This document shows positions 340 through 19,383 of a DNA stretch of 64,000 nucleotides, in pieces. The DNA lies in the NCBI GenBank assembly GCA_030425385.1, contig JAUIAH010000003.1, forward strand, positions 1-64,000. Reading direction: 5' to 3'. The translations under genes were made by a program, and so were the position numbers. This stretch comes from Verrucomicrobiia bacterium (GTDB lineage Bacteria; Verrucomicrobiota; Verrucomicrobiia; Verrucomicrobiales; DEV007). How positions within the stretch are numbered: the stretch's first letter is position 1; every line of letters begins with the position of its first letter. A model generated the notes under the pieces. That model saw nothing but the letters and a program-made list of their open reading frames with translations. It was not told the DNA's origin and did no database searches.

Positions 340-693
340 ATGAATTCCGACGACTTCCCTGAACATGTCCGGCCGAACCAGAGCTGCCTCGAATCGCATC
401 GACAGGAGATCGCTCTCGCGCGGAAGAAGAAGTGGCCCTACCACGCCATCGCGACCCTTTTGTTAGAGCGGCATGGTCTCACGATCCATCCGCGCACCGT
501 TGGGAAATTCTGTGACCGCCGTCGCATCGTGAAGGGCAAGGGCGAAACGCAGGTCGATCAACCTGCGAGTCCAACACGGAGATCCTCTCGCCCTTCAAAC
601 CGGCCAACGCCCGCGGAGAAGTCGGCCTTTGATTTCGATGAGTCGCTGCCGATGGAGACTTGGAAAACTCGAACCGGATCGCGGCCCGAATGA
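340..693 (+). CDS. TraK-like small DNA-binding protein of a transfer module
   Basis: This is a basic protein of 117 residues. Residues ~20-60 look like a helix-turn-helix ('IALARKKKWPYHAIATLLLE' followed by 'HGLTIHPRTVGKF'). The remainder is a low-complexity, Arg/Ser/Pro-rich tail. I do not recognise a named family by sequence alone. The reading as a TraK-like relaxosome protein comes from size, charge and order: it is followed directly by two ParA/TraL-like ATPases and a single-TM protein, matching the traK-traL-traM order of IncP plasmids. Its stop overlaps the next start as ATGA at 690-693, so translation is probably coupled. Alternative: any small accessory DNA-binding protein of an integrated element. 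Confidence 0.5.
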   Translation: MNSDDFPEHVRPNQSCLESHRQEIALARKKKWPYHAIATLLLERHGLTIHPRTVGKFCDRRRIVKGKGETQVDQPASPTRRSSRPSNRPTPAEKSAFDFDESLPMETWKTRTGSRPE

Positions 694-1475
694 GTTCGAG
701 ACAAACATCTGAAGCATCGTCCATTCGCGTCGTCTTCACCGATGGCGGAAAGGGTGGCGTTGGCAAGACGGAGGTGGCGGTGTGTCTTGCGACTTGGTAC
801 CAACGTCAGGGCATTCAGCCGACATGCATCGACTTCGGTGCCGAAAGCAACGCCAAGGGTTCCTTTCGTAGCTTCATTCCAAATGCGTTGAAGTTCGAGG
901 CATCGAAGCCGGGGGCGCTCGACCATTTCTTCGAAGGCTTGGATGGCAAGGATCGCGTGGTGCTGGCCGACATGAGCGCGGGCTCCGGCCCGGCGTTGGT
1001 GGATTGGTTTGATAGGACGCGAACGGACACGGATGCCTATCACTTTCGGTTCACGGCGATTGGGGTGACGACCAATGATCCGGGTGCCGTCAACGCGATC
1101 CTGCAATCGGCCAGGCGATGGCAGTCCCGCGTCGATTACCTCGTGGTCTTGAATCGTCTTTCGGAGACGCAAGGTGAGTTCCACTTCTGGCACCAGCACC
1201 CCGGTGTGGCGGAGTTCGAGCGTTTGCTCAAGCCAAGTGTCATCGAGGTGCGCGCTCGGCGCGCTCGTTACCAAGGCGAAGTCCGCAACCACGCGCTGAC
1301 CTTGGAGAAGATCATCGGTCGGCAAGTGGACGTGCCCTATTTCCGCTACTCCCGCCGCATCGCCTACGCGAGGCGCCTGCTCCGTCAGATCTACGGGGAG
1401 TTCGACCGCGTCTCGCACCTCCTCCTGCCCGAAGGGAGCCCTAACGCCGCCGTTCAACAAGCCCCTTTCATCTAA
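690..1475 (+). CDS. ParA/TraL-like P-loop ATPase, first copy
   Basis: This is a 261-residue protein with a deviant Walker A motif, GGKGGVGKT, near residue 20. It is followed by 'CIDFGAES' (the switch position of ParA/MinD ATPases) and 'VVLADMSAGSG' as Walker B. I chose the ATG at 690 rather than the upstream TTG at 660 because it forms an ATGA overlap with the preceding stop and begins MSS, like its paralog. The family uses ATP-driven dimerisation for DNA partition or, in the TraL branch, for conjugative transfer. Its neighbours favour the TraL-type role. It is clearly homologous to the next gene: both contain 'RFTAIGVTTNDPGAV', 'RVDYLVVLN' and 'LDHFFE'. It is not a typical parA, because no parB follows. 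Confidence 0.75.
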   Translation: MSSRQTSEASSIRVVFTDGGKGGVGKTEVAVCLATWYQRQGIQPTCIDFGAESNAKGSFRSFIPNALKFEASKPGALDHFFEGLDGKDRVVLADMSAGSGPALVDWFDRTRTDTDAYHFRFTAIGVTTNDPGAVNAILQSARRWQSRVDYLVVLNRLSETQGEFHFWHQHPGVAEFERLLKPSVIEVRARRARYQGEVRNHALTLEKIIGRQVDVPYFRYSRRIAYARRLLRQIYGEFDRVSHLLLPEGSPNAAVQQAPFI

Positions 1476-3535: not shown

Positions 3536-6500
3536 TTAGCGTAGGATCACGCGAAGGCGAAGAAAGAGAGGAAAGCTTCCGGTGACTGTCATGGTGACTC
3601 GCTCGTGTGTTCCTGCGTCTGCAAGGGCTGTCTGTGTGATCGTGACGGGGGTTCCGTTGGCTTGGGTTTGCCCACTCTGCTTCCAGAGGCGCAGGTCTTC
3701 TGACCATTCTAAGATGCCGGTGGCCTGCCCCACGGCGGCTTTGTTTCTCCGATACGTGGCTTCAATGATGTTTCCGTTCGCCACGGCATCGAGATCTAGG
3801 TGCGCATCGAAGAGCGTGGGGTTGAGGTCCATGAAGAATTCTATCAAATTCACCAGGCCATCGCGATCAGGATCAGCGTGCGTGCCCCAAATGGATGCTC
3901 GCATCGAGGCGTCTGCTAGGGTTGCCTCCGGGAAATACTGCTTTAGCCAGGTCCGGTAGGCTGCGTTCCCCGCGAGGGCGTCAGGCACGAGGGCGTAAAC
4001 GATGTCGGAATCGCCCAGGAGAGGGGGCACTCTCCGCGCCCACGCCGTGAGGAGTCCGCTGTTCGTGGGGAGCACTGCGGCGGAGAAGTCGTTGCGAGAT
4101 CCTGGCAGGGCATAGGAATCAGCCGTCGTGGGTGTGGTCCACGTCAGGCCGTGATTCGTGCTGCAACTGACGACGACGGTGAAGGCGTTGGTGGCGCCAC
4201 CTAGGAGTGGCTCGTCCGTTGTCCAAGCGACGGTCCACTGTCCGGCGCGGTCGGTGGCGATCCATGGGAAGAAGTCTTCCGCGGTCTCTCCTGAGATGTT
4301 GTTGAGTCCAAACTCAGGTCCCCAAGTCGCGCCGTCATCTATCGAACGGGCTATAAGGACATCGTGACCGTCCATGGGCGTGCCTTCCACTGATCCTTCC
4401 AGATACCACGTCGCGATCCACCTGCCGTGGCCATCAGCGGCGAGACGAGGCGCAAAGTCATCTTCCTCTGCTCCATCCGTGGCCGCTTGCGAATTGAGAA
4501 AAGCACCGGCTGACCAGGTGGCCCCGGCATCAGTCGAGCGGCGGAAGAGGAGATCGTCGTCACCGCCTACCGCTGCGCCAATCCCTCCTGTGGGATTGTT
4601 AGACACCCAAGAGGCGATGAAGGTTCCCGAGACAGAGGCGTGCACGCTCATGCCAAACTCGTCGGCATTGTCTGTCGCCGCACCGGGATTCATCGCCTGG
4701 ATGGAAGACCACGTCTGGCCGCTATCCGTGCTGCGGGCCCAGGCGATGTCACCATCCATGCCAAAGGCACCGCTGATCGACCAGACGGCAACCAGATTGC
4801 CTTGTTCGTCGCTGGCCAGGAACGGCTCGCTATCGAGATCAGCGTTTCCATTGTCAGACGTGGCTGACGTATTCAAGGGGCTCGGAAAGGACCAGGTCTG
4901 GCCGCCATCAATGCTGCGGGACTGGAGGAGATCAGAATCTGTCCCCAACGTTCCTCCGAGATTCTCGTTGGATGTCCAGGCTGCAAGGAAAGTGTTATTG
5001 CCCACGTAGACCACTTTGGGATCGCGATCCGTGCCGGTGTCGCCTGTGCCATTGGTGTTTAGCAAGGATGTGGGACTCCAGGTCTTTCCACCATCGATTG
5101 ATCGGGCTACGAAGATGTCCTGATCCGTCCCTGACAATCCGTTAAGGTTTTCGTCAGAGAACCAGACGCACACCACCGTGCCGAGATGATCGGTGGCGAG
5201 CGATGGTTGGAAATCCGATCCGGTATCGACGCTGGCTTGATGATTGAGAGGGCCAGACATGCTTGGGAAGAAGTCCTTCGGTGCGAGAGCAAAGAGAAGA
5301 TCGAAGTCACTCCCAAGGGTTCCATTGAGATCATGTGAGGAGGTCCACACCGCCATCCACTGGCCATCGGTTCCCGCCGCTAAGGAGGGCTCGAGGTCTT
5401 GAGCATTCATCGAATCATTCGCGGCACTATTTCCTACGGAAGAAGGCACCGTCCATGTTTGCCCGTTGTCGAGACTGGCACTTATCCAAACATCGGCGTC
5501 GGTTCCTGAGCCGTTTCGTTCTGATTCCGAACTCCACGCCACCACCCAAAGGGAGCGCGAGCCCGAACGGGTATGGACGAGAGATGGGTTAAGATCCAGC
5601 GCATCATCGAGGGATGCATTGCGATTCACAGCAGCAGGTGCGGACCAGGTCGCGCCATCATCGTCGCTGAATGCCTGAAGGATGTCTTGGTCGTCTCCAA
5701 TGACGTTGGCGAGCGTATTGCCAGACTCCCATACGAGCATCCATTCACCAGGGAGATCTCCAGCGCGAAGTTCAGGTCCAAAGTCCTGGCCTTGGTCCGC
5801 TCCTGGACTGACAAAGACACCTGTGGGTGGCGACCAGTTGATTCCGCCATTGCGTGAATGCGAGGTGTGAATGTTACTCGTCCCGGTATCATCCGTTGCC
5901 CAGGCTACTAACATCGTGCCGTTTCCGCTCACATCCACCGTTGGAAGGAAATCTGCTGCGGAATCAGTGCCTGCCCCAGCATTCACCGGGAGAGGATTGG
6001 ACCAGGTGGCCCCTCCATCCGTGGAGGTGGCCACGAGGATGTCCTGATCACTTCCCAGCGTGCCTCCTCGCGTGTCGTCTGTTTCCCAAACTACAATCCA
6101 TCTACCAGAAGCATCGACGCTAATGTCAGGATTGGTGTCGGACCCGGTGTCCGAGGTTGCCTGTGAGTCGACTGCCTGCGGAGCGGTCCAGGTGACCCCG
6201 CCATCGTTCGATCGCGCAGAGAGGATGTCGCGATCAGTGCCAGCACCATTGAGATCTTCGTTTGATTCCCAAACAGCAACCCAACTTCCATTCCCATCCG
6301 TCGCCACAGACGGGCGGAAATCCGCGCCCGTGTCGCCGGGGGCGTTGCGATTGAGAAAAGCTGGAAACGTCCAGATCTTGCCATCCGTCGATCGGGCGAT
6401 GAAGATATCTGGATCTGTTCCTGAACTCGACAAGATGTCTTCGTTAGAACTCCAAACGGCGAGCCATCCTCCTTGGCCATCGCTTACAACCTGCGGTTGC

Positions 6501-6646
6501 GAATCGAAACCGATGTCTCCTGCGGCGGTGGCGTGAATCGTTTGTGGGGCGAGCCAGGCAGGGGCCGCCGAGAGGGAGAGGAATGGGATCAGAAACAAGA
6601 AGAGAGCGAGAGATGTGAACAGGCGAGAATGGATCGATGGATTCAT
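3536..6646 (-). CDS. Secreted sialidase-fold (Asp-box/BNR) repeat protein
   Basis: This is a 1036-residue exported protein. The chosen ATG at 6646 gives a clean signal peptide ('LALFLFLIPFLSLSAAP'); an upstream start at 6706 would put charged residues before it. The mature part carries about 12 Asp-boxes of the form S.D.G.TW (for example 'SNDGGVTW', 'SIDGGKTW', 'STDSGQTW') in ~70-residue modules that also contain 'G.W..VW.S'. This is the pattern of BNR/sialidase beta-propellers. Catalytic sialidase residues (the Arg triad and FRIP motif) are not evident, so a carbohydrate-binding or structural role is as likely as a glycosidase. The C-terminus has 'DPDRDGLVNLIEF', a 'WSEDLRLW' segment and 'FLRLRV', the module shared by several proteins here. 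Confidence 0.8.
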   Translation of the reverse strand: MNPSIHSRLFTSLALFLFLIPFLSLSAAPAWLAPQTIHATAAGDIGFDSQPQVVSDGQGGWLAVWSSNEDILSSSGTDPDIFIARSTDGKIWTFPAFLNRNAPGDTGADFRPSVATDGNGSWVAVWESNEDLNGAGTDRDILSARSNDGGVTWTAPQAVDSQATSDTGSDTNPDISVDASGRWIVVWETDDTRGGTLGSDQDILVATSTDGGATWSNPLPVNAGAGTDSAADFLPTVDVSGNGTMLVAWATDDTGTSNIHTSHSRNGGINWSPPTGVFVSPGADQGQDFGPELRAGDLPGEWMLVWESGNTLANVIGDDQDILQAFSDDDGATWSAPAAVNRNASLDDALDLNPSLVHTRSGSRSLWVVAWSSESERNGSGTDADVWISASLDNGQTWTVPSSVGNSAANDSMNAQDLEPSLAAGTDGQWMAVWTSSHDLNGTLGSDFDLLFALAPKDFFPSMSGPLNHQASVDTGSDFQPSLATDHLGTVVCVWFSDENLNGLSGTDQDIFVARSIDGGKTWSPTSLLNTNGTGDTGTDRDPKVVYVGNNTFLAAWTSNENLGGTLGTDSDLLQSRSIDGGQTWSFPSPLNTSATSDNGNADLDSEPFLASDEQGNLVAVWSISGAFGMDGDIAWARSTDSGQTWSSIQAMNPGAATDNADEFGMSVHASVSGTFIASWVSNNPTGGIGAAVGGDDDLLFRRSTDAGATWSAGAFLNSQAATDGAEEDDFAPRLAADGHGRWIATWYLEGSVEGTPMDGHDVLIARSIDDGATWGPEFGLNNISGETAEDFFPWIATDRAGQWTVAWTTDEPLLGGATNAFTVVVSCSTNHGLTWTTPTTADSYALPGSRNDFSAAVLPTNSGLLTAWARRVPPLLGDSDIVYALVPDALAGNAAYRTWLKQYFPEATLADASMRASIWGTHADPDRDGLVNLIEFFMDLNPTLFDAHLDLDAVANGNIIEATYRRNKAAVGQATGILEWSEDLRLWKQSGQTQANGTPVTITQTALADAGTHERVTMTVTGSFPLFLRLRVILR

Positions 6647-6772
6647 GAGGGCGACAAGGTTGAGGTCCGGCGATGACAGACAGAATCCTGCCAGCCATCG
6701 CCACATCGCCGTCGAGGCTACAACATTCCCCGAAGGAATACGATCAAACCCTGTGGTATCCGCCGATCCTTC

Positions 6773-9700
6773 TTACTCCCGGCTGACGCGGAGGCGGAAG
6801 TAGATCGCGTCCTGCTGCTGTAGCAGGACGGTGACCTGTTCGCCGCCTTCTGGCACTGCGGCCACGGATACAAAGTCAGGCCATGGCGATCCGGCCGGGC
6901 GCTCCACGATGGCATCCCAGGTCAGAAGATCAGAAGAAGCTTCAATCACATAGGCAACATCGGCGGGCGGATCTCCTAACGAAAGCACGAGAGCGTTTGG
7001 GCTGGCGGAGAAGGCTGCGCGATCACCGAGAGCATATTGGAGAAGCGCTTCCTTCTCGGTCGGCGAGGGGTCGCCGCCGCCACCGTCTTGAGCATTCTGT
7101 CCTCCTGGCGTACCGTGAGGGGCCTTTCCACTCTGCCAGAGAGGCAGGTCGAGGTCGAGCGCCTCAAGGGAATGGCCTTCCATGGCGATGGGCTCGTAAC
7201 GGAAATCAAGAATCGCCGCACCGAAGGGCTCAGGTAATGTGAGGGTGAGCGTCTCCCCACTGTTGTCGAGCTTGCCCGTATATTCGCCGGCGATGGGAAG
7301 CGTCGTTCCATGCCGTGCCTCAACGATCGCTCGATTGCGCACGATGAGAACGCGGCTTCCTGGCTCAAGCATCCACTCAGGGAAGATGAACTCAATGCCA
7401 CGTGTGAACCGCACGCCTTCTAACGGAATGGCTACTTCTCCCGTGTTGATGAGTTCCACAAACTCTTCCTCACTTCCATCGATCGGGTTGTAGTGCAGTT
7501 CACTGATGCGCAGGTGATCCATGAGGAGGAGGGCCTGCACCATGGCCTCTGCCGTCGCAGCGAATCCGTCTGTGGGGAATTCTGGAAAGAAGCTCGCCCC
7601 ATCGAACGTCCATGCTTGGGAGGTGTCTTGGGTTTGGGGTGAGAGCAATACGATCTCTCGTATCTGACCATCGGGAGAGATCAATGCGAGTGATTCGCCA
7701 TTAGCGTCCAAGGCAAAGTCCACGTGTCCATCTGCGGATGAGCCGTCCGCAATCAGTTTCCAGAAAGTCTTGCCGGCAAGATAGGTGTGAGGGGGAAAGC
7801 GATGCGCTTCTGGATCACCCTCAGGGTTGTCTGTGAGGCGCCAATCCGCGAGCGCGACCGGAAGTGAACTATCATTGTAGAGCTCGATCCAGTCTTCTCG
7901 GAAACGTTTATCCGTGGCCGCAAGGATCTCCGTGATACGCACTTCCTCTGCTGAACCTAAAGGCTGCTTCACGTTGGCTGCTCCGAGCGTTGGCACGGTC
8001 AATGTCCATGCACCACCCAAACGCCCGAGCGTGTAGCCTGCTGGTTGATAGCCGAAGCGGATCTCGTCCACAGGTTCTCCGTTAGGATCGAGGAGGAAGA
8101 GGGCGTCTCCATCCCGATCGAGGGTCACCTCGGTGACTACCAGATAGCCACGAGCTTCAAGAGTGCTGCCCTCGGGGAAGATGTAAGGATTCTCATCAGT
8201 CAAGCTCTCCGCCAATTGCCAGCCCGTCAGGTCTGCGGCGAGTCCCCGATTGTGAAGCTCCACCGCATCCTCGCCCACGGTTCGAAGCTCATGCAGGACG
8301 ATGTCTGTACTATTGGGTTGAATCGCCCATTCGCGAACAGTGACGTCCTCCTCGGGTTGCCAATTTCCGGCGAAATCTTGCCCTAACACTTCGAGACGTT
8401 GATTGCCTTCCACAAGATCTTCGAGCACGAGAGTGCTCCACCGAACGGTGGGCGCGTCGCGGAGGAACCTTCCTGGTGCAATGCTCACAGGGTCACTCCA
8501 CGGCCCGTCGTTGAGTCGCCAACGGTAGGCGAAGATTCCAGGACCGCCGACTTGGAAGGTCGCGTGTGTCTCTGCACTTCGTGAAAGGGGGCCACCGGTG
8601 AGGTGAGCCCATTCCCGGATCGACGCCCCCATAGGTAGGCCGTTGCTAGCGAATCGCGTCTCAGGTTCGCCTGACAGATTTCCCATTCCCCAGCGTTCAT
8701 CGAAGATTCCTCCAGGATGCTGGGAGCCGATTTCTGGATCCTCGAGTTGAGGATCGATGAGGTTGTGATCGATCTGAATCTGGCTGGTTCTGTCAGGGCG
8801 GTTGGGCTGGTCGAGGTCTGCCCAACTGATGAGACGCGGAAACCCAGTCTGGTTGAAGATCCCCGAGGATGCCGATCCGTAGAAGACGTTGTAGCCAAGG
8901 TAGGCGCCATCGCCTGGGGTGGGGGCAAAGTCTTCGGGAACGAAGAGATTGACGGCTGCGCACCGCACGTCTTGCTGGATGTTGCCCACTTCGTAGCGAT
9001 AGTCCTGAGGGAAATCGAGGCAGTCGTTGAACTCGAAGATGGTTCCTGTGCCGAGTTTGCAATTGATAGCGTGCTCCACATTGCGAAAGACATTGCCTGT
9101 GACGACGATGGTTGTGCCCGATCCGCGATCGCCCGTCGAGATGGCATTGGCGTAGCCGCGGTCCGAGGTGAACTCGTCTTTCCGCACATTCTCAAAGACA
9201 TTGAAAGCGATGTAGGCATCCCCACCGAGGTCGATGTGTTCATCGCCGACGGGACCATGAAAGTGATTGTAACGGCAGTCGAGCACGGTGCTCTCACCCC
9301 AGCGCCCGCTGTCCGCGTCAAAGACATCGTTGTGGCCTTTGTTTCCATAAAAGTGATTGTGATAGACTCGGAAATGGCCATTGACGGGAAAGCCCCCCAC
9401 GAAGCGGGGATCATCGGGGACGGCTGGGGATTCCACTTTGAGTTGCTCTGCCACATTATCCAAGCGAAGGGCCACCGGGCTTTCGTCCTCAGCAAACATG
9501 TCAGGAAAGATGCAATGCTGCACGGTGAGTGAGCAGTTACGCCCATAGATCATGCGGTAATGCGTTCCCGAGAAAGTGCAGTGCTCGATGAAGCACTCAG
9601 AACGGATCACTCCGATACTGCCTTGATTGTCTGTCGGCTGGGCATTCACAAACACCGCGTGTTGGATGATATTGTCAGGCGAGAGCGAATCTACGATACG

Positions 9701-12700
9701 AATTCCACCCCATTTGGGCGGCCCCATCTGCATCCCGGGCAAGAGCGGATCGTCTTCATCCGCCGCCTCTGGGTGCTCGGAGAATCGCACGGGGGCATAC
9801 TCCGTTCCTAACGCTTGAATGGTTCCTAACACCGTGAGGCGAACGCCTGGATCTGCGTAGACGCTGACGCCGGGATCGATTTGCAGGAGGCTTCCTTCTG
9901 GGACGGTGGCATCGTCTACGAGATGGAAGGGGCCATCCTCAGCCCGCCAATGAATGGTTCCGCCGATGCTTTCTGCTTCTTGATAGGGGAGCGCTCCCAT
10001 GTCGACACCCGCAGGGCCAGCGCCCCGCGCGGGAGAATGGCTTTGCAAATGGAAGTCTGATGACGCGGCATTGACGAACAAAGGAGCGTCAAGAAAGAGG
10101 GCGCTCGTATCGAGAGCGTCTCCATTGCCTAAGACTGTTGTTTCGGTATCGAGAATTGAAGCTGCGACAGAAACGTCGACTTCCGTTCCAAGGTCGAAGC
10201 CATTGGTGCCTACAAGGGTGAGATGATTGCCTGACAGGGTTCCTCTCTCTACCTGAACGCCCGTGGAGAAACCGTGAATGATCGTGTGATCGATCGCCAC
10301 TGTGCCGCCCACGACGCGCACGCCGGCTAGGCCATCTCCCGTAATCCGGCTCCCCGTGAGACTGACGGAAGCCGCGCTGTGCACGCCTTCAACAGAACTG
10401 GTGATCACGGTGTCTGTGATAGTGGTCTCTCCATCCAATGCCAGCACGCCCGTGAGGATGGTATTGCCTATCAATGTCATCTCTCCGTGATTCTCGATGC
10501 CTCCGGGAAAGCTTTCGATCGTGCTCTCCTGGATCAGAGTTGGGCCGGATCCTCCAAGTTGACGGATGGCGACGTTAGATTCGATATGGCCGTGAGTGAA
10601 TGTGAGCGTTCCCTCTTCCACCGTTAATCCATCTTGAGCACCGCTGATGAATGCATGGACCATCTCGATAGAGCCCCCGTTCACGATATGGAGACTCCGC
10701 CAACGGAGGTCCGTCTCGCTTGGCTCCCAGAGGATGGGCGCGGATTCCGTGCCCTGGGCATTCAGGACGCCATGCACATCCACTCCAGCATCGGGCGCCA
10801 CGCGAATCAGGGTGCCAGGGGAAATGGTGAGGGTACTCGTCGCGGGAAGGATTACCGATTCTGCCACAAGGATGCGTCCGCTCCAGACATGGTGCTGACC
10901 CTCTTGCAATTCCCCACCGACCGTTTGAAAGAATGATGGTCCTGCGACCTCCACAACCTTAACGAGGCGACTGACAGAACTGCGTCCCGCACGGACTTCA
11001 AGGTTGAACTCCTCGATCGCTCCCACGCCCTTCTGGCCAATGATCTCCGCTTCGAAATACTGGTCGTTTGCGACATCAAAGGGATTCGTGGAATCATAGT
11101 GAGGGCCCTGGTGAATCTGAACAGCGAAGACGTTAGGGCCTGGCACGAGATGCTCCATGGGAATGACAAAGTCTTCAAACTCAGAGGGAATCCCTGGTCG
11201 ATCGATGGTAGAAAGAGTGGACTCCGTCACGACAACGCCAAGGCCAGGGGTGGTGATCACGCGTTCGCCATTGACCCAGACGGAGGCGGCATCCGCGTAG
11301 CGCATCCGCAGGGTGAACTGGTGATACGCCTCGATGTCTAATGTTGCCGTATGACGCAAATGAGAGGTTGGGAACGCTGGCGGAAGGAATCCACCGTTGG
11401 CTTGATCTGGCGGAAAGCCTACCGGTGCTCCGGTTTGGACCCATTCGTTGTCGTCAAAGTCAGTCCCGCTCCACCCCGCTTCAACAGGTTCTGGTCGGAA
11501 GTGAACCTTCCAAGGGGTATCTCGCGTGACGAGGATGTCTTCTTCACCTAACAAAGCATCCAATTGATCCTGATCTGGAACCCGCGCCGTGACCAGGGCT
11601 GTTCCTAAGCCATTCTCTAGCACAATGGCGCTTGGCTGGAAGGTCACTCCTGGAATCGCAGAGGTTAATCGGGCCACTTCCCATGCTGGGTGTGCCTGTA
11701 GACGAGATCCTTCTTTGAGCCGCTGGACGCGGACGGGAAACGGGCGCCCCATCTCGATGTTGTTAGGCATCGCCACAACCAGCTCGCCCTCGCTCTCAGT
11801 GGCCGTGGCCGTGATGTCGCCTGAGATCTCCTGGGCAGGTGATCGGAAATACACCTCCAGTTGATCCGTGTGTACCCTTTCGCTGGAAGAATCTTCGCCA
11901 CGATGATAGGCGATCTCGAAGGCGTTGATGCCAGGGCGGAGGTGAGTTTCCGGGACGACGTATTCCCAAGTCCCTGCGTTCCCTCTCGATTCTCCATAGG
12001 AGATTTCGGCCGCTCGTCCGTTGACAAAGATCGCTCCCGTATCGCCCACATGGAAAGTCCCTCGCAACCAGACAAAGCCATCGGTCACGCGCAAGCCCCG
12101 AACTTCCATGGCGGAGTCGGTGTCCACCGATACCCCATAGGTTTGCGGGATCTGTTGGGAAATGGCTTCGCGATGCTCCCTCACAAATTGCTTAGCAGCG
12201 GCCACTTTCTCCTCCGGGGTCCATGAGCCGATCACCTGGTCAATGACGGGATCAATGATTTCAGGGCGAAACCAGCCCTCTAGCATTTCCAGATACGTTT
12301 GGTAATACTCACGAATGGTTTGCCGGTCCTGCCCTAACAACCGCTCCAGTCCATCGATCTGCCGGTAGATGAAGATGTCCTCCTGGGCGAAGTTGCGCTC
12401 CCCAATCGTCATGACCGTATCGAAGTCGTGCGGCAAGAGGACAAAGCGCGGGTCATTCACCCCGCGATAGATGCCAAAGTCATCCGCCCGCCCAGTGGCG
12501 AGGCCGCCTTCCATGTTGGCGATGAGGGTATTCACCGCCAGGTAGCGCAACCACTGCCGGACATTCACCACCTTCTCTACTTCCTCGCGGAAGGATTCCA
12601 TGGGTGCGCGATCCAGAGCATCCGTGAGTGCGATGATATCACTGAAGTCGTCCAAATCTTCATTTGTGCGCTTCAGATAGGTGATATTGTAAGGGTCGTT

Positions 12701-14236
12701 CTCGTCGCCCTCGTAGGTGAACTGGCCGGTGCCCAGTCGAGCGTGATCATCAATGCGATAGAGATTGCCATCGGGATCGTGCGGATACAGACGTTCGATC
12801 CAGTCCCCATTCATGGGCTCCGCCCTGACATAATGGCCGTATCCCACGGTGCCACGGTCTGCAGTGTCCGTGCCATTGACGCGCACGCGCACGGGGACAG
12901 CCTCCGTTGTCGGTAATCCTGCTAGTTGGAACATAGCAGCCCCCAGGGCCTGGCTAAACGGGTAACGTGAATTGAGCTGCATCGAGCGGCGCCCATTCCA
13001 AAGGTGGTCATTGGGAAAGGAGACGTTGAAGTTCACGGGATTGCCTGAGCGGCTGCTGTAGCCACGATCACGGACGGACATCCCATGGATGACCTGGACT
13101 CCGGTGCCGTCCACACTGACAAATGTGCCATGAAAGCGTGCGTTGACCGGATTGCGCGGACCACTCGCATCCTGGGCGGCCTTTAAACGAGCCCGCTCGT
13201 CAGGAGTCATGATCATGAGATAGATCGGCGTGTCACCGGGCTGCCACCTATCCAGTGCGTGCGCGTCATCGACTTGGAACAGCGCGTTGGTCTCATTCCC
13301 ATAAACGGGCAGGATCGCTCCCGTCTCAATCTCACGGGCGGGCGCGGGCCAGGTGCGGCTGTTTCCCGTCTCATCCGACGCTTCGACGTAGTATTCGCCA
13401 ATGCCCTCCGGGGGAACATTCGTGATGCGAATTTCAAACCGATCGTCTCCCATGGGGGCGGCGGGCACGGGTGTCCACGGCGTTTCACCAAAGACGCGAT
13501 AGTGTATGGTCACGTCTCCGAGTTGATCGTGATCATCACGCACTCTAGCAGAGATCGTCACCGTATCGCCCGTGCGAGGGATTGCCGGCTGATGCGAGAC
13601 GGCGGTGATGACAGGGGCAATGTTAGCCTCAAGGACAGAGTTGGCCTGACCGGGAGTGCCGCCTCCTGTCAGACTCTCGGTCCAGAGTTGTCCTTGATTG
13701 ATGGCAAAGTGAGGTTGGATGAGTTCTAACGTTCGGCCCCCGCCGTCCGCGAGATTCCTCCAGGTGCGGCCGAGAAAGTCTTGCTCGACTTTCTCAATCG
13801 TCCGCAAGCCCCATTCACCCTCGGTCGCGTAATCGACCGTATCGATCGCCTCTCCGTCTGCGTCGCGCAAGCGGATGGATTCACTGGCATTGCTCAAACG
13901 CCCCTCCCAACCACCGATGGCGGTGATCTCAGGATAGAGAGACTGGAAAGCGGTGAGATCGGCCGCCACCACGAGATAGCCATGGGCAGGGATCGCCACG
14001 CCATCTGGGAAGATGAAGTTTACCCCTCGCGTCAACTCCCAGCCACTGAGATCGACTTCAGTATCCGTGAGATTGTGGAGTTCCACCCATTCTTCTCGCG
14101 GATCCTCCACGGGCTCCCCTTTGGGATGGAACATCAACTCGTTGATGACGATCTGACCCTGCCCTGATGCGAGGGTTCCCAGAATCGCGAAACTCCACAG
14201 CAAATACCATCGACCAAGCAAGAGACGTTCCATCAT
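6773..14236 (-). CDS. Giant secreted lamin-tail / CotH kinase / beta-helix protein
   Basis: The protein has ~2487 residues. After an N-terminal signal segment comes a lamin-tail domain ('IVINELMFHP', 'WVELHNLTD', 'GYLVVA'). A CotH-type atypical kinase-like domain lies at roughly 320-650 ('GMSVRDRGYSSRSG', 'LLPHDFDTVM'). Then come a jelly-roll-like module with 'ASVWVNGERV', two stretches of right-handed beta-helix repeats, and three more lamin-tail domains ('IVLHELRTV', 'VRITEILAA', 'LRISELHYNP'), with 'YFRLRVSRE' at the end. CotH-family proteins in spore coats phosphorylate coat proteins; the substrate here is unknown. The start may be ATG 14236, ATG 14233 or GTG 14245. Proteins of this architecture are typical of Verrucomicrobiota and Planctomycetota surfaces. 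Confidence 0.8.
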   Translation of the reverse strand: MMERLLLGRWYLLWSFAILGTLASGQGQIVINELMFHPKGEPVEDPREEWVELHNLTDTEVDLSGWELTRGVNFIFPDGVAIPAHGYLVVAADLTAFQSLYPEITAIGGWEGRLSNASESIRLRDADGEAIDTVDYATEGEWGLRTIEKVEQDFLGRTWRNLADGGGRTLELIQPHFAINQGQLWTESLTGGGTPGQANSVLEANIAPVITAVSHQPAIPRTGDTVTISARVRDDHDQLGDVTIHYRVFGETPWTPVPAAPMGDDRFEIRITNVPPEGIGEYYVEASDETGNSRTWPAPAREIETGAILPVYGNETNALFQVDDAHALDRWQPGDTPIYLMIMTPDERARLKAAQDASGPRNPVNARFHGTFVSVDGTGVQVIHGMSVRDRGYSSRSGNPVNFNVSFPNDHLWNGRRSMQLNSRYPFSQALGAAMFQLAGLPTTEAVPVRVRVNGTDTADRGTVGYGHYVRAEPMNGDWIERLYPHDPDGNLYRIDDHARLGTGQFTYEGDENDPYNITYLKRTNEDLDDFSDIIALTDALDRAPMESFREEVEKVVNVRQWLRYLAVNTLIANMEGGLATGRADDFGIYRGVNDPRFVLLPHDFDTVMTIGERNFAQEDIFIYRQIDGLERLLGQDRQTIREYYQTYLEMLEGWFRPEIIDPVIDQVIGSWTPEEKVAAAKQFVREHREAISQQIPQTYGVSVDTDSAMEVRGLRVTDGFVWLRGTFHVGDTGAIFVNGRAAEISYGESRGNAGTWEYVVPETHLRPGINAFEIAYHRGEDSSSERVHTDQLEVYFRSPAQEISGDITATATESEGELVVAMPNNIEMGRPFPVRVQRLKEGSRLQAHPAWEVARLTSAIPGVTFQPSAIVLENGLGTALVTARVPDQDQLDALLGEEDILVTRDTPWKVHFRPEPVEAGWSGTDFDDNEWVQTGAPVGFPPDQANGGFLPPAFPTSHLRHTATLDIEAYHQFTLRMRYADAASVWVNGERVITTPGLGVVVTESTLSTIDRPGIPSEFEDFVIPMEHLVPGPNVFAVQIHQGPHYDSTNPFDVANDQYFEAEIIGQKGVGAIEEFNLEVRAGRSSVSRLVKVVEVAGPSFFQTVGGELQEGQHHVWSGRILVAESVILPATSTLTISPGTLIRVAPDAGVDVHGVLNAQGTESAPILWEPSETDLRWRSLHIVNGGSIEMVHAFISGAQDGLTVEEGTLTFTHGHIESNVAIRQLGGSGPTLIQESTIESFPGGIENHGEMTLIGNTILTGVLALDGETTITDTVITSSVEGVHSAASVSLTGSRITGDGLAGVRVVGGTVAIDHTIIHGFSTGVQVERGTLSGNHLTLVGTNGFDLGTEVDVSVAASILDTETTVLGNGDALDTSALFLDAPLFVNAASSDFHLQSHSPARGAGPAGVDMGALPYQEAESIGGTIHWRAEDGPFHLVDDATVPEGSLLQIDPGVSVYADPGVRLTVLGTIQALGTEYAPVRFSEHPEAADEDDPLLPGMQMGPPKWGGIRIVDSLSPDNIIQHAVFVNAQPTDNQGSIGVIRSECFIEHCTFSGTHYRMIYGRNCSLTVQHCIFPDMFAEDESPVALRLDNVAEQLKVESPAVPDDPRFVGGFPVNGHFRVYHNHFYGNKGHNDVFDADSGRWGESTVLDCRYNHFHGPVGDEHIDLGGDAYIAFNVFENVRKDEFTSDRGYANAISTGDRGSGTTIVVTGNVFRNVEHAINCKLGTGTIFEFNDCLDFPQDYRYEVGNIQQDVRCAAVNLFVPEDFAPTPGDGAYLGYNVFYGSASSGIFNQTGFPRLISWADLDQPNRPDRTSQIQIDHNLIDPQLEDPEIGSQHPGGIFDERWGMGNLSGEPETRFASNGLPMGASIREWAHLTGGPLSRSAETHATFQVGGPGIFAYRWRLNDGPWSDPVSIAPGRFLRDAPTVRWSTLVLEDLVEGNQRLEVLGQDFAGNWQPEEDVTVREWAIQPNSTDIVLHELRTVGEDAVELHNRGLAADLTGWQLAESLTDENPYIFPEGSTLEARGYLVVTEVTLDRDGDALFLLDPNGEPVDEIRFGYQPAGYTLGRLGGAWTLTVPTLGAANVKQPLGSAEEVRITEILAATDKRFREDWIELYNDSSLPVALADWRLTDNPEGDPEAHRFPPHTYLAGKTFWKLIADGSSADGHVDFALDANGESLALISPDGQIREIVLLSPQTQDTSQAWTFDGASFFPEFPTDGFAATAEAMVQALLLMDHLRISELHYNPIDGSEEEFVELINTGEVAIPLEGVRFTRGIEFIFPEWMLEPGSRVLIVRNRAIVEARHGTTLPIAGEYTGKLDNSGETLTLTLPEPFGAAILDFRYEPIAMEGHSLEALDLDLPLWQSGKAPHGTPGGQNAQDGGGGDPSPTEKEALLQYALGDRAAFSASPNALVLSLGDPPADVAYVIEASSDLLTWDAIVERPAGSPWPDFVSVAAVPEGGEQVTVLLQQQDAIYFRLRVSRE

Positions 14237-14269
14237 AACAATCACGAAAAGTTGAATTGCTAGGGAAAC

Positions 14270-14345: not shown

Positions 14346-14564
14346 ATGAAGTCGCTATTCTTCCTCCCATTGGGCCTCTTGTCGGCACTGTTCGTCAGTT
14401 GCGAAACCCTGCCTCTTAGTGAGCGACAGTTTATTTCTCAACCCTCGATGCTCTTTGAAGGGACGGGTGCACACAAGTTCGATTGTGGTCTGACAAGCCA
14501 GATCGAGACTGGCCGCGTGGGTGCCGGTGGAGCCTCTGGAGGCGGCTGCAGTTCTTGTCACTAA
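14346..14564 (+). CDS. DUF4266-type small lipoprotein with CSSCH C-terminus
   Basis: This is a 72-residue lipoprotein starting at ATG 14346 (an upstream start at 14298 would bury the signal). The signal peptide ends in the lipobox 'LFVSC'. The mature part has 'SERQFISQPSMLFEG' and ends 'GASGGGCSSCH'. This matches my recollection of DUF4266, a short family with 'L..P.M.F' followed by a C-terminal GGGC-C motif, usually encoded beside a DUF3570 outer-membrane protein and a thioredoxin-like protein. Here the terminal CSSCH also fits the CxxCH haem-c pattern, though a metal or disulfide role is equally possible. It is the first gene of a tight operon: 18 bases to the next gene, then two UGA-containing thioredoxin-like genes. 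Confidence 0.65.
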   Translation: MKSLFFLPLGLLSALFVSCETLPLSERQFISQPSMLFEGTGAHKFDCGLTSQIETGRVGAGGASGGGCSSCH

Positions 14565-14582: not shown

Positions 14583-15722
14583 ATGAAGGTGAAGACGCTT
14601 GCTCTTGGGGTGCTTGGATGGCTCAGCGTGGGCTGGCTGCCAGCCGGCGAATTTGTCGACACGGACGTGGACCCCGTTTTCGAAGAGGAATCAGGCCTCT
14701 TCTCCTCGTGGTCGTTCCGCACGCGATTCGATGCCGAGTCGTCCGTGCTCTGGGCGGACGGCATTGTCCTGAGCGAACACGCCTTGGGCGGACGGATCAC
14801 CTCGGATCCCTTCGACGTCGGGCTCACGGTTGGTTACAGCACCTTTGATCTCGACTACGAGCCCAGCATCTTTGGAGCGGACACGACGCTCACCGAAGAT
14901 CGGACTACCTACGCGCTCGATGGACGCGTCACGCTTGCCAGTCAGTGGGATCTCGTTGGCTCCGTCGCCTACTACGACGGCTTCTCTGACTACCGCTCGT
15001 TGTGGATCAGCGAGTATTACAATCAACTTTTCGGAGGGGTGCCCTCATTTGTCGATCCCGCACCTAAAGGCGTCAGCTACACGCTCGGGTTGGAGTGGGA
15101 ATACATTCCGATCATGGCCAAAGTGCGTCTGACCGGAGGCTATGGCAAGGACACCATCGCGCCCGCCTACGACATCGGCGAGAATGGTCTGGAGCGGAGT
15201 CGCCCTGACCTTTACACCAAATTGCTTCAACTGCAGACAGAGAACGTCCTCTCTTCCCGCGTCGTTGTTCAGAACACTTTCCAATACACAGACACGACCA
15301 ACCGGGAGAAGCGCTGGACGGCACAGACTGGGTGGAATATTGCCTTGGCGGACGCCCTTTATTTGCGTCTGCTAGGCGGCTATGCGGTGGAGCAACCGTC
15401 GTTCGAAGCCTATCACATCGGGGGCACCTTAGAGTATCAGGTCGCCGACGAGTGGTTTGTCCGCGTGAACGCACGCTACTACGAAGACACGGGCGAGATT
15501 GAGAATTCGCTTGGCGGCTTCACGAGTTCGGCCCCTGGACTAGAGTCCTTTGAGTTTGGTGCGGGGCTTCGCTGGCAAGGCGTGCACAGTGCCTTGAATC
15601 TCTATGCGGGCTACTATCAGACCAACTACGATGCCCTTGCGGAGGATAATCTCTTTCTCCAGAACCTCTACGCGGATCGTCGCTGGGGTTTGGTCCAGCT
15701 CAGTTATACTTACAGTTTCTGA
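14583..15722 (+). CDS. Outer-membrane beta-barrel protein (DUF3570-like by context)
   Basis: This is a 379-residue protein with an N-terminal signal peptide ('LGVLGWLSVGWLPAG'). Alternating hydrophobic/aromatic strands follow ('FDVGLTVGYSTFDLDY', 'LYLRLLGGYAVEQ', 'LNLYAGYYQTNY'), and it ends in Y-S-F, the aromatic C-terminal signature of proteins inserted by the BAM complex. I cannot name the family from motifs. Because it follows a DUF4266-type lipoprotein, a DUF3570-like role is a reasonable guess, but the sequence match is not clear to me. It probably forms a 14-16 strand barrel. The gene starts 18 bases after the lipoprotein stop and ends 20 bases before the first UGA-containing gene. Confidence 0.65.
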   Translation: MKVKTLALGVLGWLSVGWLPAGEFVDTDVDPVFEEESGLFSSWSFRTRFDAESSVLWADGIVLSEHALGGRITSDPFDVGLTVGYSTFDLDYEPSIFGADTTLTEDRTTYALDGRVTLASQWDLVGSVAYYDGFSDYRSLWISEYYNQLFGGVPSFVDPAPKGVSYTLGLEWEYIPIMAKVRLTGGYGKDTIAPAYDIGENGLERSRPDLYTKLLQLQTENVLSSRVVVQNTFQYTDTTNREKRWTAQTGWNIALADALYLRLLGGYAVEQPSFEAYHIGGTLEYQVADEWFVRVNARYYEDTGEIENSLGGFTSSAPGLESFEFGAGLRWQGVHSALNLYAGYYQTNYDALAEDNLFLQNLYADRRWGLVQLSYTYSF

Positions 15723-15742: not shown

Positions 15743-16750
15743 ATGAAACGGACGACACTCTTGTTAGCATCCTTCCTGGGTATCTTTGGGGCACTATCGC
15801 TCGCTTCCGCGCGGCCAGCTGTTGGCCAAACATCGAGAGTGCTTCCCCTCACAATCTTTAAAGATGGCGCCCTTACAAATGCGCACTTTGAGCAGTTATT
15901 AGGAAAGATAGTGATCGCCTACTACTACACTCCGTGGTGAAGTACGTGAGGCAGCACGGGCAGTCAGTTTGGCAGCCAAGTATTGAGTCAGATTGCTGAG
16001 AAGGGTCACCGGAATGCCAACGGTGTGGAGATCGTGAGCATAGCGATAGGTATCGAAGACAATTCCTTCTATGATCAGCACGTCATGCGAGACCCGGCTC
16101 GCTGGGGATTCGACCTTACCGGAATCGACTGCGTGCTTGATGGTGACACGCGGACACAGATCCGCGAAGGGATCGCTTACTACTCCGGTTATTCGGCCAA
16201 TGTTGTTATCGACAAGAATCGGCGCAACATTGTCATCCTCAATGGCGTGGCTGATTCTCCCAACCACAAAGCCTGGGAAGTCCTGCACACGTCGCCATAC
16301 TACATTAGCCAACAGCGAGATCGGATTCTTGCTGCCATCGATTCCGTAATGCCGGGAGAGCGTAGCGGTGCCTCCGAGGAAGAGAGCTTCGCGAGTTGGA
16401 TGGTCGCGGCGGGATTGCCCGGGGAAGACCCGTTCGAGGACAGTGATGGAGACGGCTTGTCCAATGCGTTGGAATACTATTTCGACACCTCTCCCACGAT
16501 CGCCGGTGCTAGTCCGCTGAGGTATGTCCATCGCCACGGTGCCCGCTGGATGGCCTTTCCCGCACGCAAGATCCGGAGCCAAGTCTCTGTGGAAATCGAA
16601 GCGTCCCACTCGCTTACTGATTGGCACATCTTAGAGATTCCTGAGGATGACTTTCGTATTGCTACGGAGGGGGCTATGGATCAAGCCGAGGTAAAGCTTC
16701 CTTCGGAATCCGCTCCGTTTGCTCGCCTCCGCGTCACTCTACCTGAGTAG
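15743..16750 (+). CDS. Exported thioredoxin-like selenoprotein with UxxU motif, paralog 1
   Basis: Read through two in-frame TGA codons (15938-15940 and 15947-15949), this is one continuous 335-residue protein with predicted selenocysteines at 66 and 69. The N-terminus is a signal peptide ('LLASFLGIFGALSLASA'). A thioredoxin-like beta strand ('GKIVIAYYYTPW') runs straight into U-S-T-U, where thioredoxins have CxxC. Downstream the frame stays open to 16750 with conserved 'NANGVEIVSIA.GIED' and 'NIVILNGVADSPNHK'. The C-terminal ~120 residues carry 'DSDGDGLSNALEYYF', a 'SLTDWH' segment and 'FARLRVTLP', the module shared by secreted proteins here. A near-identical paralog with the same two TGAs follows. 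A double-nonsense pseudogene is unlikely for that reason. UxxU with a diselenide bond is known in the SelL family; whether this is SelL or a distinct family is open. Confidence 0.85.
15938..15981 (+). promoter_or_regulatory. Candidate bacterial SECIS region, paralog 1
   Basis: The 44 bases from the first TGA onward are nearly identical to those in paralog 2 (two differences), including synonymous positions. Within them TTTGG (15968-15972) and CCAAG (15976-15980) form a hairpin around CAG. The loop begins 32 nt after the first TGA and 23 nt after the second, both in the usual distance range of bacterial SECIS elements. A smaller hairpin CGTG/CACG (15945-15948, 15955-15958) overlaps the second TGA; paralog 2 retains it through a G-U pair. 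Confidence 0.6.
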
Positions 16751-16776
16751 TTATCCCAACCCCAAACTTCCTAACC

Positions 16777-17796
16777 ATGAAATCAACCCTAACCTATCTA
16801 TCGGCTGTCCTTCTTGCCATGGGATCGTTTTCCGTGGCGTCTGGTCAACTTGCTGTGGGCGATGCGTCTGAGGTGCTCCCCCATACGATCTTTGAGAATG
16901 GCACGCTTTCCAATACGACTTTCGAGCAGCATGAAGGCAAGGTGATCCTCGCCTATTACTACACGCCGTGGTGAAGTACGTGAGGCAGCATGGGCAGCCA
17001 GTTTGGCAGCCAAGTGTTAGGCAGCGTGGCAGCGAATGGTCACCTGAATGCAAACGGCGTCGAGATCGTGAGCATTGCGTTAGGCATTGAAGACAATGCT
17101 GGCTTTGATCAACGCGTCATGCAAGATCCCGCCCGCTGGGGTTTCGACCTCGCTGGCGTCGACTGCGTCCTTGATGGGAGTGATCGCACGGAGATCCGTG
17201 AAGGATTCGCCTACTACACGGGGCTCTCTCCCAGCCGCATCCCAGGGACCGGTCAGCGCCGCGCGTTTGTGATCCTTAATGGGGTGACGAACTCCCCTTC
17301 ACACAAACCATGGGAGCTCTTGCACTTTTCCCATGGCTTTTCGAGCACGCAGAGTGACAGCCTCCTCGCCTTGATCGATTCCGTCATGCCCGGTGATGGC
17401 AGTGGAGGCGGCGGCGATCCGACGGGTCAGAGTTACACCGAATGGATGGCCGAAGCAGGACTCCCCGACGCCGCACCACTGGAGGATGGCGACGGCGATG
17501 GGCTCAGTAATGTCGTGGAGTTCTATTTCGACACGCCTCCTGGCCAGGCCAATCCCAGCCCCTTGCAGTTCTCCAGCATTGACGGTACCTTCCGACTCGC
17601 CTACCCCGTCGGGAAGGACCGGACTGGAGTCACGGTGGGCCTTGAGACCTCGACGAGTCTCGCAGAGTGGCAATCGCTCGATGTTCCCGAGGGCGATTGG
17701 GTCCTTACCGAGGGTGAATCGGTGGACCAAGTGGATGTTTCGCTGCCCGCCGACATGGAATCCTTTGTGCGTCTTCGAGTGACATTGAGCGACTAA
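16777..17796 (+). CDS. Exported thioredoxin-like selenoprotein with UxxU motif, paralog 2
   Basis: This second copy has 339 residues when TGA codons at 16972-16974 and 16981-16983 are read as selenocysteine (66 and 69, the same positions as in paralog 1). It has a signal peptide ('LSAVLLAMGSFSVASG') and 'GKVILAYYYTPW' followed by U-S-T-U. The downstream frame is open and conserved: 'HLNANGVEIVSIALGIED', 'RWGFDLAGVDCVLDG' and 'FVILNGVTNSPSHKPWELL'. The C-terminus repeats the 'DGDGDGLSNVVEFYF' and 'SFVRLRVTLS' module. Protein divergence from paralog 1 is substantial outside the UGA region, so the duplication is not recent and both TGAs have been kept. Both genes share the leader CTTCCTAACCATGAAA just around the start. 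Its stop directly abuts the stop of the convergent halogenase-like gene. Confidence 0.85.
16972..17015 (+). promoter_or_regulatory. Candidate bacterial SECIS region, paralog 2
   Basis: This stretch has the same hairpin as paralog 1: TTTGG (17002-17006) and CCAAG (17010-17014) around CAG, starting 32 and 23 nt after the two TGA codons. The conservation covers third codon positions, whereas the flanking coding sequence has diverged, which argues for selection on the RNA. Confidence 0.6.
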
Positions 17797-19383
17797 CTAA
17801 ACTTGGTCGCCTTCGGACATTGCCAAATCCGCTCTTCTTCCTCTCATCGGCAAGCGCTCTGTCGTCTGCGTCGATCGAGGGAGAAAGCGGTAGGCGAGGC
17901 CGCGGCATTCGCAGCGCCACCAGGCGAGCACACCTCTGATAAAGGGCTTGATGGCGGCTGGGCCTGGCGCAAAGCCAGGCTTGATCAGAAAGCTGCGATC
18001 CAAATTGCGAATGCCGTAGCGCCCTACAGCGTGACGCTGTTCTGCTAGAGCGACCAGGCGGCGATTGTAGAATCGCATGAATCGGGCGAACCATCCTCCA
18101 ATCGGTCCGTGATAGGGCATGCGGGCGAATTCGCGTTCGGTATGCCGATAGACGAAGTGGACAGGCCCCATGAAATAGGTGCCGATGTCTAACAGAAAGG
18201 CTGCTTTCATCAACTCGGCATCGCCCAGGTAGGCATACTTGTCGCGATAGAGTGCCTCAAACCATCGCCGATAGCACTGAGGATAGTTCTCACGATACGC
18301 CTCCCAATCGCCAGAAGCGTCTTCACCCTCTAGCGATTTGGCAATGAAGGCCTTCGTCGTCATGACCGTGTGCCCGATGAAATCGATGCCATGGCTGTAG
18401 AGCGGGTCCATGAAGCCAGCCGCATCCCCCACACACGCCCACCCGGGTCCTGCTACCTCTGTATTCTCGTAGGCCAGCTGTGTGTATGTCAGGGTGTCGC
18501 GAGGGACGGGCTCGGCGTCGGCAAAGAGCCATGCGCCGATGGGGTGTGATCGCAAATGATCGAGGAGCATTTCCGTGAGGGTGCCCTCGCGACGCGGTTG
18601 GAAATAGCGCGGGTCATAAGTGAGCCCGGCGCTGAGTTCGCCATTCCGCAAGGGGATGAGCCAACACCACCATCCGCGTCCCGTGAGGTGATTGGTCGCC
18701 GAGGCGCGAGACACGTCGCAGGCCATGGCCCATTCGGGATAACGCCTCTTCAGCTCGGGTCCGTCCAGGTCTCGCACATGGCGAAAGCGTGCCCAGACAG
18801 ACTTCGTCACGTGCTCTGAGAGAGGGCGCAAGGTTTGGCGCTGTCGCCCAATCACGGCTGCCTTACCGGTGGCGTCGACAACCCATTTCGCGCGGACGGT
18901 CTTCTCGGAGCCATCTGACAGTTTCACCGTCACTTCGTTCGCATCCACACCTTGGAGCGTCATGCCCGTCGCATGTGCCGGTCGGAGCACTTCACACCCC
19001 GCCGCCTCCGCGAGGTCCAAGACATGCTGATCCAATACCGCGCGATCCACTTGGTAAGTGGGCAAACGTGCTTGAAAGAAGGGGCCGATTTCGCCGCAAC
19101 GGGCCAAAGACGTGTTGCCCTCACGTTGAAACCAAAGGCGTAACCCATGCTTGACGACGTGCTCCTGCGAGAGATGTCGAGAAAGGCGCAGCACGCGGGT
19201 GAGGAAACAGCCGCCCACTTCGGACGTGGACTCGCCTACCCGACGTTTGAAAGCCGAGCCCTTCTCGACAATCTTGATGGACCACTCAGGATTCTGACGT
19301 TTCAGAAGGAGCCCCATCGAGGAACCGGAGAGTGACCCCCCCAGGATCAAGACATCGATGGCAGATGGATCAGCGCTGTTCAT
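17797..19383 (-). CDS. FAD-dependent halogenase-like oxidoreductase
   Basis: This 528-residue flavoprotein has the FAD-binding 'VLILGGSLSGSSMGLLL' at ~11-27, 'GESTSEVGG' near 50, 'WVVDATGKAAVIGRQ' at ~167, 'WCWLIP' at ~239-244 and 'CVGDAAGFMDPLYSHGID' further on. WxWxIP is the hallmark of flavin-dependent halogenases, and the GES-T and GDAAGF-DPL-S-G motifs are shared with tryptophan-halogenase-like proteins. The catalytic Lys of true halogenases is not obvious at the expected place, so a hydroxylase-type or other monooxygenase of the same fold remains possible. It needs a flavin reductase partner; a flavin-reductase-like gene lies 3.5 kb away (22855-23457), but no linkage is proven. It is convergent with the selenoprotein operon. 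Confidence 0.7.
   Translation of the reverse strand: MNSADPSAIDVLILGGSLSGSSMGLLLKRQNPEWSIKIVEKGSAFKRRVGESTSEVGGCFLTRVLRLSRHLSQEHVVKHGLRLWFQREGNTSLARCGEIGPFFQARLPTYQVDRAVLDQHVLDLAEAAGCEVLRPAHATGMTLQGVDANEVTVKLSDGSEKTVRAKWVVDATGKAAVIGRQRQTLRPLSEHVTKSVWARFRHVRDLDGPELKRRYPEWAMACDVSRASATNHLTGRGWWCWLIPLRNGELSAGLTYDPRYFQPRREGTLTEMLLDHLRSHPIGAWLFADAEPVPRDTLTYTQLAYENTEVAGPGWACVGDAAGFMDPLYSHGIDFIGHTVMTTKAFIAKSLEGEDASGDWEAYRENYPQCYRRWFEALYRDKYAYLGDAELMKAAFLLDIGTYFMGPVHFVYRHTEREFARMPYHGPIGGWFARFMRFYNRRLVALAEQRHAVGRYGIRNLDRSFLIKPGFAPGPAAIKPFIRGVLAWWRCECRGLAYRFLPRSTQTTERLPMRGRRADLAMSEGDQV

Follow-up and report, generated by a model that had tools for sequence, protein, structure and literature searches.

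Tandem genes for predicted exported UxxU selenoproteins in an outer-envelope operon of Verrucomicrobiales, with a lipoprotein partner that is a predicted selenoprotein in relatives

In a 64,000-nucleotide stretch of DNA from a Verrucomicrobiia bacterium (contig JAUIAH010000003.1; hereafter the window, meaning the whole stretch analysed), two adjacent paralogous reading frames each meet TGA at codons 66 and 69 and then stay open, in copy 1 until a TAG at 16748-16750 and in copy 2 until a TAA at 17794-17796 (Table 1). The pair has the same context in both copies, YYYTPW-U-S-T-U-G. Are these broken genes, or do they encode proteins with two selenocysteines (Sec), and if so, what might such proteins do? 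An earlier note on this DNA had described the two frames and expected automated calling to yield four truncated genes; the coordinates were confirmed, and under translation table 11 each gene does break into a 65-residue ORF followed by one of 255 or 268 residues.

Table 1. Positions and predicted features of the operon in the window, and of Sec-containing lipoprotein genes in relatives (named by locus).
Feature	Position	Strand	Remark
Small lipoprotein	14346..14564	+	72 aa; FVSC as lipobox-like signal; GGGCSSCH at the C-terminus, behind a Gly-rich linker (proposed redox partner, tail taken to be mobile)
Outer-membrane beta-barrel	14583..15722	+	379 aa, no Cys; OMP_b-brl E=0.0011
Selenoprotein copy 1 (predicted)	15743..16750	+	335 aa; UxxU thioredoxin-like domain at ~residues 25-205; signal peptide identified by eye
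TGA as Sec codon 66, copy 1 (predicted)	15938..15940	+	
TGA as Sec codon 69, copy 1 (predicted)	15947..15949	+	
Predicted bSECIS hairpin, copy 1	15959..15977	+	7-nt arms, one A.A mismatch, loop AGUUU
Copy 1, C-terminal part	16343-16747		TSP3-like + beta-sandwich module
Selenoprotein copy 2 (predicted)	16777..17796	+	339 aa; tandem duplicate, architecture as copy 1
TGA as Sec codon 66, copy 2 (predicted)	16972..16974	+	
TGA as Sec codon 69, copy 2 (predicted)	16981..16983	+	
Predicted bSECIS hairpin, copy 2	16993..17011	+	
Copy 2, C-terminal module	17377-17793		
Sec lipoprotein, L153 (predicted)	3624-3845	+	
Sec lipoprotein, L154 (predicted)	6478-6693	+	
Sec lipoprotein, L155 (predicted)	6818-6967	-	
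Sec lipoprotein, L158 (predicted)	3571-3795	-	tail GUTUSSN (UxU)
Sec lipoprotein, L159 (predicted)	390-506	+	tail GTGUAAC
Sec lipoprotein, L160 (predicted)	6841-7062	-	
Sec lipoprotein, L161 (predicted)	6823-7050	-	
Sec lipoprotein, L198 (predicted)	1179-1394	+	

The two copies share the leader AACTTCCTAACCATGAAA at their starts, which points to a tandem duplication, and their proteins are 55% identical. Substitution 3' of the TGAs is strongly biased towards silent sites (dN ~0.18, dS ~1.34; NG86) and, as set out below, 31 orthologous loci have TGA or Cys at both positions. Judged from these sequence comparisons, the double-TGA frames are more than a chance occurrence.

Frames of this kind would also be open if TGA were reassigned or generally read through in this genome, with a residue other than Sec at these positions. 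However, the beta-barrel gene directly upstream of copy 1 ends at an ordinary TGA stop (15720-15722), so the genetic code is unchanged; moreover, orthologs have Cys at the residue, a SECIS element is present and the Sec machinery is complete. In the window's genome (8.0 Mb, 74 contigs, 95.5% complete), SelA (491 bits), SelB (283 bits), SelD (361 bits) and tRNA-Sec (selC, 65 bits) all score above their curated cut-offs, as a search proposed in the earlier note had to establish. A changed code was thus rejected, and we allow it only a negligible chance. The SelD gene (within C23:119376-123299, minus strand) has a CGU motif with one in-frame TGA and is itself a predicted selenoprotein.

Using a profile of the domain, we identified orthologs in two other families of the order, while same-genus genomes hold further copies, mostly UxxU. 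TGA stands at codons 66/69 in 26 loci of the order (18 UxxU and 8 UxxC), and five more orthologous loci are CxxC, which supplies the Cys homologs that the earlier note had asked for; TAA or TAG at these codons, which it held would refute the Sec reading, occurs in none of the 26 TGA loci or the five Cys loci. The U/C state switches at least four times on the tree, and near-identical proteins differ in it, one being UPTC (L157) and two CPTC (L162, L163). SelA was found in 17 of the 18 genomes that have a U form, the one exception being a 72%-complete metagenome-assembled genome (MAG), and is missing from eight of the ten Cys-only genomes (in four of these ten the only form is the rather distant CGPC type); SelA persists in two Cys-form genomes. 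Most of the relatives are MAGs. This natural set of intact UxxU, UxxC and CxxC orthologs within one double-Sec family, near-identical Sec/Cys twins included, opens to direct testing the question why a protein should employ a diselenide in place of a disulfide.

The same ortholog set bears on whether the TGAs are simply true stops, in pseudogenes undergoing decay or in sequences containing errors. Some same-genus MAG copies do carry lesions, an in-frame TAG in one UxxU/UxxC gene (L087) and frameshifts in two others (L084, L089), which may be MAG errors or decaying copies. Against this, the TGA positions are identical in 26 loci from many independent genomes, dN/dS is low 3' of the TGAs, the downstream hairpin covaries, Cys orthologs exist and SelA co-occurs. 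The pseudogene reading was therefore rejected: in practice the ortholog set rules it out, leaving it next to no credence.

Nothing comparable was found outside the order in a phylum-wide sample. A TGA-specific DNA pattern run over 84,980 species genomes returned 15 stretches, ten of them true members, all assigned by record title to Verrucomicrobiales, Akkermansiaceae, Verrucomicrobiia or Verrucomicrobiaceae; the other five, in Planctomycetota, Micrococcales, Pseudomonas and Burkholderiales, were discarded as chance matches without family sequence or conserved hairpin. Back-translated Cys peptides gave no match against genome contigs because the relatives carry TGA. As far as we have searched, the UxxU family is confined to one order, Verrucomicrobiales.

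A bacterial SECIS (bSECIS) had been anticipated 3' of the TGAs, and a bacterial-type hairpin with strong covariation is found there. It aligns without gaps in the 26 TGA loci, with arms at nucleotides 22-28 and 34-40 from the first TGA and a loop AG[U/G]UN. The arms are paired in 75% of cells, compared with 54% in shuffles; double-changed pair cells number 42 versus 15.9 in shuffles (a value reached by 0/500) and 9-18 with an arm slid; and the covariation score is 0.57 versus 0.18 in shuffles (again 0/500) and 0.09-0.24 with an arm slid. RNAalifold recovers the identical stem unprompted. The hairpin is lost in Cys orthologs, where the mean minimum-energy z is +0.2 against -2.2 for the U forms (p=2e-5), and in the two CPTC near-twins a CGC to CGG change, silent for the Arg, disturbs the stem. 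The SECIS assignment rests on the 26-sequence covariation, because the two window copies show only a slight rise in codon identity near the TGAs (p=0.02). By itself the copy 1 hairpin is modest (-7.4 kcal/mol over 25 nt, z ~-1.5, an internal mismatch; -14.2 over 60 nt).

The published bSECIS model has a 4-16 bp stem, a 3-9 nt loop with G in its first two positions, a minimum free energy of at most -7.5 and a UGA-to-loop distance of 16-37 nt (PMC13188914). Loop, spacing and covariation satisfy the criteria, with the 25-nt value of copy 1 at the energy limit; Rfam returned no match at the site. Since the loop starts 25 nt from UGA66 and 16 nt from UGA69, both within the range of the model, one bSECIS can satisfy both UGAs, and we infer that a single element probably serves both: the hairpin would stay outside the ribosome until both codons had gone by. 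By this reading, two UGAs separated by nine bases may share a single bacterial SECIS, with implications for how SelB is reused.

Although there are no proteomic, selenium-labelling or expression data, we regard it as close to certain that UGA66 and UGA69 are decoded as Sec, by a ribosome that would use SelB and tRNA-Sec. The best explanation of the locus as a whole, functional Sec genes with one shared hairpin, encoding an exported TlpA/peroxiredoxin (Prx)-like domain that forms a relay with a lipoprotein, has in our estimate a probability of roughly 0.8.

The lipoprotein in question comes from the operon. Irrespective of the active site, three families of the order (f1, f2 and f4) keep the gene order lipoprotein-barrel-thioredoxin (Trx); the lipoprotein ends in GGGC[SA]xC[H/R/Q], and the barrel has one Cys or none. 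Among 387 genomes of the order, 26 have both a barrel and a Trx gene. In two genomes with a barrel no Trx was detected (one contig stops directly behind the barrel, and the other case is a weak match); conversely, two with a Trx are without a barrel, each being fragmented or at a contig edge. The Trx genes belong to a conserved outer-envelope redox operon, although the pairing is not obligatory, since in a same-genus genome (G003) a lipoprotein-barrel pair stands without a following Trx and UxxU paralogs lie outside the operon, several of them in G003 and one in the window's own genome. That genome also has a second copy of the operon (within C74:1-10000, minus strand); its lipoprotein ends in GGCASCR, and besides a barrel it includes a TlpA-like protein of the all-Cys form CPPC, behind which comes a tail rich in repeats. 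The CxxCH ending of the window lipoprotein was not taken for a heme-c site, because orthologs end in CASCR, CASCQ or UASCSN.

In eight relatives, the lipoprotein gene upstream of the barrel has TGA within its C-terminal Cys pair. Seven have a tail of the type GGGUxxC plus two residues, and the eighth, L158, has UxU. Each TGA is followed by a hairpin at or past the stop codon, with G in or next to the first two loop positions, and the mean hairpin z is -3.6 in these genes versus +0.2 in the same stretch of the Cys lipoproteins. On this evidence the Sec-tailed lipoproteins are probably an undescribed family of selenoproteins, Sec being a prediction. The 2026 review of prokaryotic selenoproteins includes neither a lipoprotein nor a DUF4266 family (PMC13188914), and the available part of a study of DUF4266 makes no mention of Sec (PMC8238504). 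The presence of Sec in the tail speaks for its being redox-active and part of the pathway to which the Trx belongs. Standard annotation cuts apart or truncates all of these genes, Trx and lipoprotein alike.

What kind of redox domain, then, carries the UxxU? The domain model (pLDDT 95.9) has a thioredoxin fold with the redox pair at the start of a helix. Peroxiredoxins and ResA rank highest in Foldseek, with 2-Cys peroxiredoxins at the top by E-value; the best VIA-align matches are a Bacteroides putative disulfide isomerase, Chlorobium DsbE, ResA and CcmG (Z 13-15), and Sco1 is also among the structural matches (Z ~13). Model and matches agree with the earlier assignment of a thioredoxin-like fold with UxxU at the CxxC site. 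Pfam matches to the domain are weak and divided between AhpC-TSA, Redoxin and Thioredoxin; NCBIfam and PADLOC hold no family for the proteins, NCBIfam giving only weak TlpA/PDI matches. All members retain a second redox residue at +3 (UxxU, UxxC or CxxC). The expectation of a cis-proline before strand beta-4 failed: the position is Arg in 28 of 28 family members, while the CPPC/CGPC paralogs retain the proline (AIP, YVP, GIP, GFP). The predicted fold is thus thioredoxin/TlpA/peroxiredoxin-like, with the cis-proline replaced by an invariant arginine. We take this position to be also that of the peroxiredoxin catalytic arginine and of the Sco metal ligand, so that the chemistry may not be plain disulfide exchange.

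The main rival to a relay follows from this arginine. Granting the Sec proteins, the UxxU domain could be a peroxidase (a Prx-like selenoperoxidase or hydroperoxide reductase), with the invariant Arg as its catalytic arginine and the operon lipoprotein as its reductant. The Arg stands exactly at the cis-proline of the CPPC/CGPC paralogs, the Foldseek ranking by E-value leads with 2-Cys peroxiredoxins, and AhpC-TSA (PF00578) is matched by 21 of 28 members at E<=1 (best 1.4e-5; window copy 1 is not among them) and Redoxin by 20 of 28. Yet the second redox residue at +3 in all members is thioredoxin/TlpA-like and not a peroxiredoxin active-site motif, and the nearest solved folds by VIA-align are of TlpA/ResA/DsbE type, which leaves the peroxidase unlikely, if a serious contender.

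The missing cis-proline would also allow UxxU/UxxC and the lipoprotein tails to act mainly on a metal or metalloid, binding or handling it (in Sco-like fashion, or as in organomercury or arsenic chemistry), with redox exchange secondary. Metal-binding Trx folds, Sco among them, typically lack the cis-proline, and the Sco1 match would fit. Many bacterial selenoproteins are also linked to metal or metalloid resistance (PMC13188914). Nevertheless, the position holds Arg and not His, the operon showed no gene for metal transport or resistance, and we consider this role improbable.

With some reservation, we favour a relay between the UxxU domain and the lipoprotein tail. The product would be exported, an inference from a signal peptide identified by inspection only, and would form a thioredoxin domain of TlpA/Prx-like fold whose redox centre is UxxU. 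This domain would most likely exchange electrons with the C-terminal CxxC tail of the lipoprotein (UxxC in relatives), forming an extracytoplasmic selenol/thiol relay at the outer membrane beside the beta-barrel, probably fed by a DsbD-type reductase. The diselenide-type bond in UxxU, the selenol chemistry, the direction of electron flow and DsbD as donor are all inferred. Counting against a relay, neither DsbD nor ApbE is adjacent to the operon (the genome has one DsbD and four ApbE genes, all on other contigs), and replacement of the cis-proline by Arg is unusual for a simple thiol-disulfide reductase. A bolder form places selenium at both ends, with a diselenide-type UxxU Trx under a shared bSECIS passing electrons, beside the barrel, to a Sec-tailed lipoprotein whose own bSECIS lies at or beyond the stop; this stays tentative, falling a little short of an even bet. 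If true, the system would have no described counterpart, and a DUF4266-type tail would for the first time be known as a selenoprotein. For Verrucomicrobiales, the findings point to an extracytoplasmic redox route based on selenium, in which the partner lipoprotein is apparently an unlisted selenoprotein.

How much of this is new depends on the known systems with which it is compared. The kind of active site is not: bacterial Prx-like thiol:disulfide oxidoreductases (PF00578) with UxxC or UxxU are already known (PMC2398784, PMC9312934, PMC13188914), including several UxxU reads of 'Prx-like 2' in Global Ocean Sampling data (PMC2398784). The window family shares with them a Trx/Prx fold, UxxU/UxxC forms with CxxC homologs and a bacterial SECIS; unlike them, it has a signal peptide, a C-terminal surface-type module and Arg for the cis-proline, lies in an operon with a lipoprotein and a barrel, and is confined to one order as searched. 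SelL, a selenoprotein of fish, invertebrates and marine bacteria, likewise has UxxU in a Trx-like fold, and it has a diselenide bond (PMC2397514). In contrast to SelL, the window proteins are predicted to be exported, multidomain and operon-borne, and Pfam scans returned no AhpC-TSA_2 match. TlpA, ResA and CcmG share the fold and a periplasmic redox role, and the CPPC protein of the second operon in the same genome is of this type, whereas the window proteins have Sec for Cys, Arg for the cis-proline and a long C-terminal module. Mammalian thioredoxin reductase ends in a Sec tail, GCUG. The lipoproteins of relatives resemble it in having a flexible Gly-rich C-terminal arm with Sec, but they are separate small proteins with UxxC or UxU and a hairpin at or after the stop, and we claim no homology.

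A precedent for the context is a set of clusters of a Trx-like protein, DUF4266, DUF3570, ApbE and sometimes DsbD, assigned to extracytosolic electron transfer, for which redox cycling of the DUF4266 tail has been proposed (PMC8238504). The earlier note had called the setting unfamiliar and the neighbour a DUF4266-type lipoprotein. The double-TGA tandem beside a lipoprotein and a barrel is real, but these clusters provide a precedent; similarly, the neighbour is a small lipoprotein with a Cys-pair tail, but its DUF4266 match is weak (Pfam E=0.0036) and at 18.7 bits remains below the cut-off of 27, as does that of one relative (L080, 15.5 bits), and the other lipoproteins scanned gave no match. 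Both systems have a small secreted protein with a C-terminal Cys pair, a beta-barrel-like partner and a Trx-like protein. The operon differs in a CxxC(H) tail in place of CxC (one UxU exists), in a barrel that is only marginally DUF3570-like (3 of 14 orthologs touch DUF3570, best E=0.0048) and, in the window, lacks the [ST]GA[ST] flavinylation motif, in having ApbE and DsbD elsewhere in the genome, and in Sec in the Trx and, among relatives, in the lipoprotein tail. In its proposed working, the operon resembles the DUF4266-DUF3570-thioredoxin clusters without meeting the formal marks of membership. The operon, the shared hairpin and the Sec-tailed lipoprotein appear to be undescribed in the literature searched, and the combination of predicted export, an operon setting, Arg in place of the cis-proline and a partner that is a selenoprotein in relatives is new as far as our searches reach.

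Some further observations concern the remainder of these proteins and their surroundings. The C-terminal module gave only generic Ig-like fold matches, none at E<=0.001, and recurs in about 46 other places in the genome at that threshold, most of them inside much longer open frames; it resembles a module of general use in secretion or surface attachment, with no function assigned. The third UxxU paralog of the genome, outside the lipoprotein-barrel operon (L085:7872-10442, minus strand, on C73; 856 aa), is fused to tandem bacterial surface-type repeats, GGxVxGxGxxDxGxxxxxxAxPxxGYRFxxW, and in another UxxU protein (L081:15969-18122, plus strand) a long Glu-Pro repeat linker joins the redox domain to surface-type repeats. 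Divergent from the operon, at 6773-14245 on the minus strand, lies a gene for a 2490-aa exported protein with an RLRV-type C-terminus in common and apparently lamin-tail/CotH-like and parallel-beta-helix-like parts. Convergent with the operon, at 17797-19383 on the minus strand, is a gene for an FAD-dependent monooxygenase related to tryptophan halogenases (Pfam E=1.7e-12).
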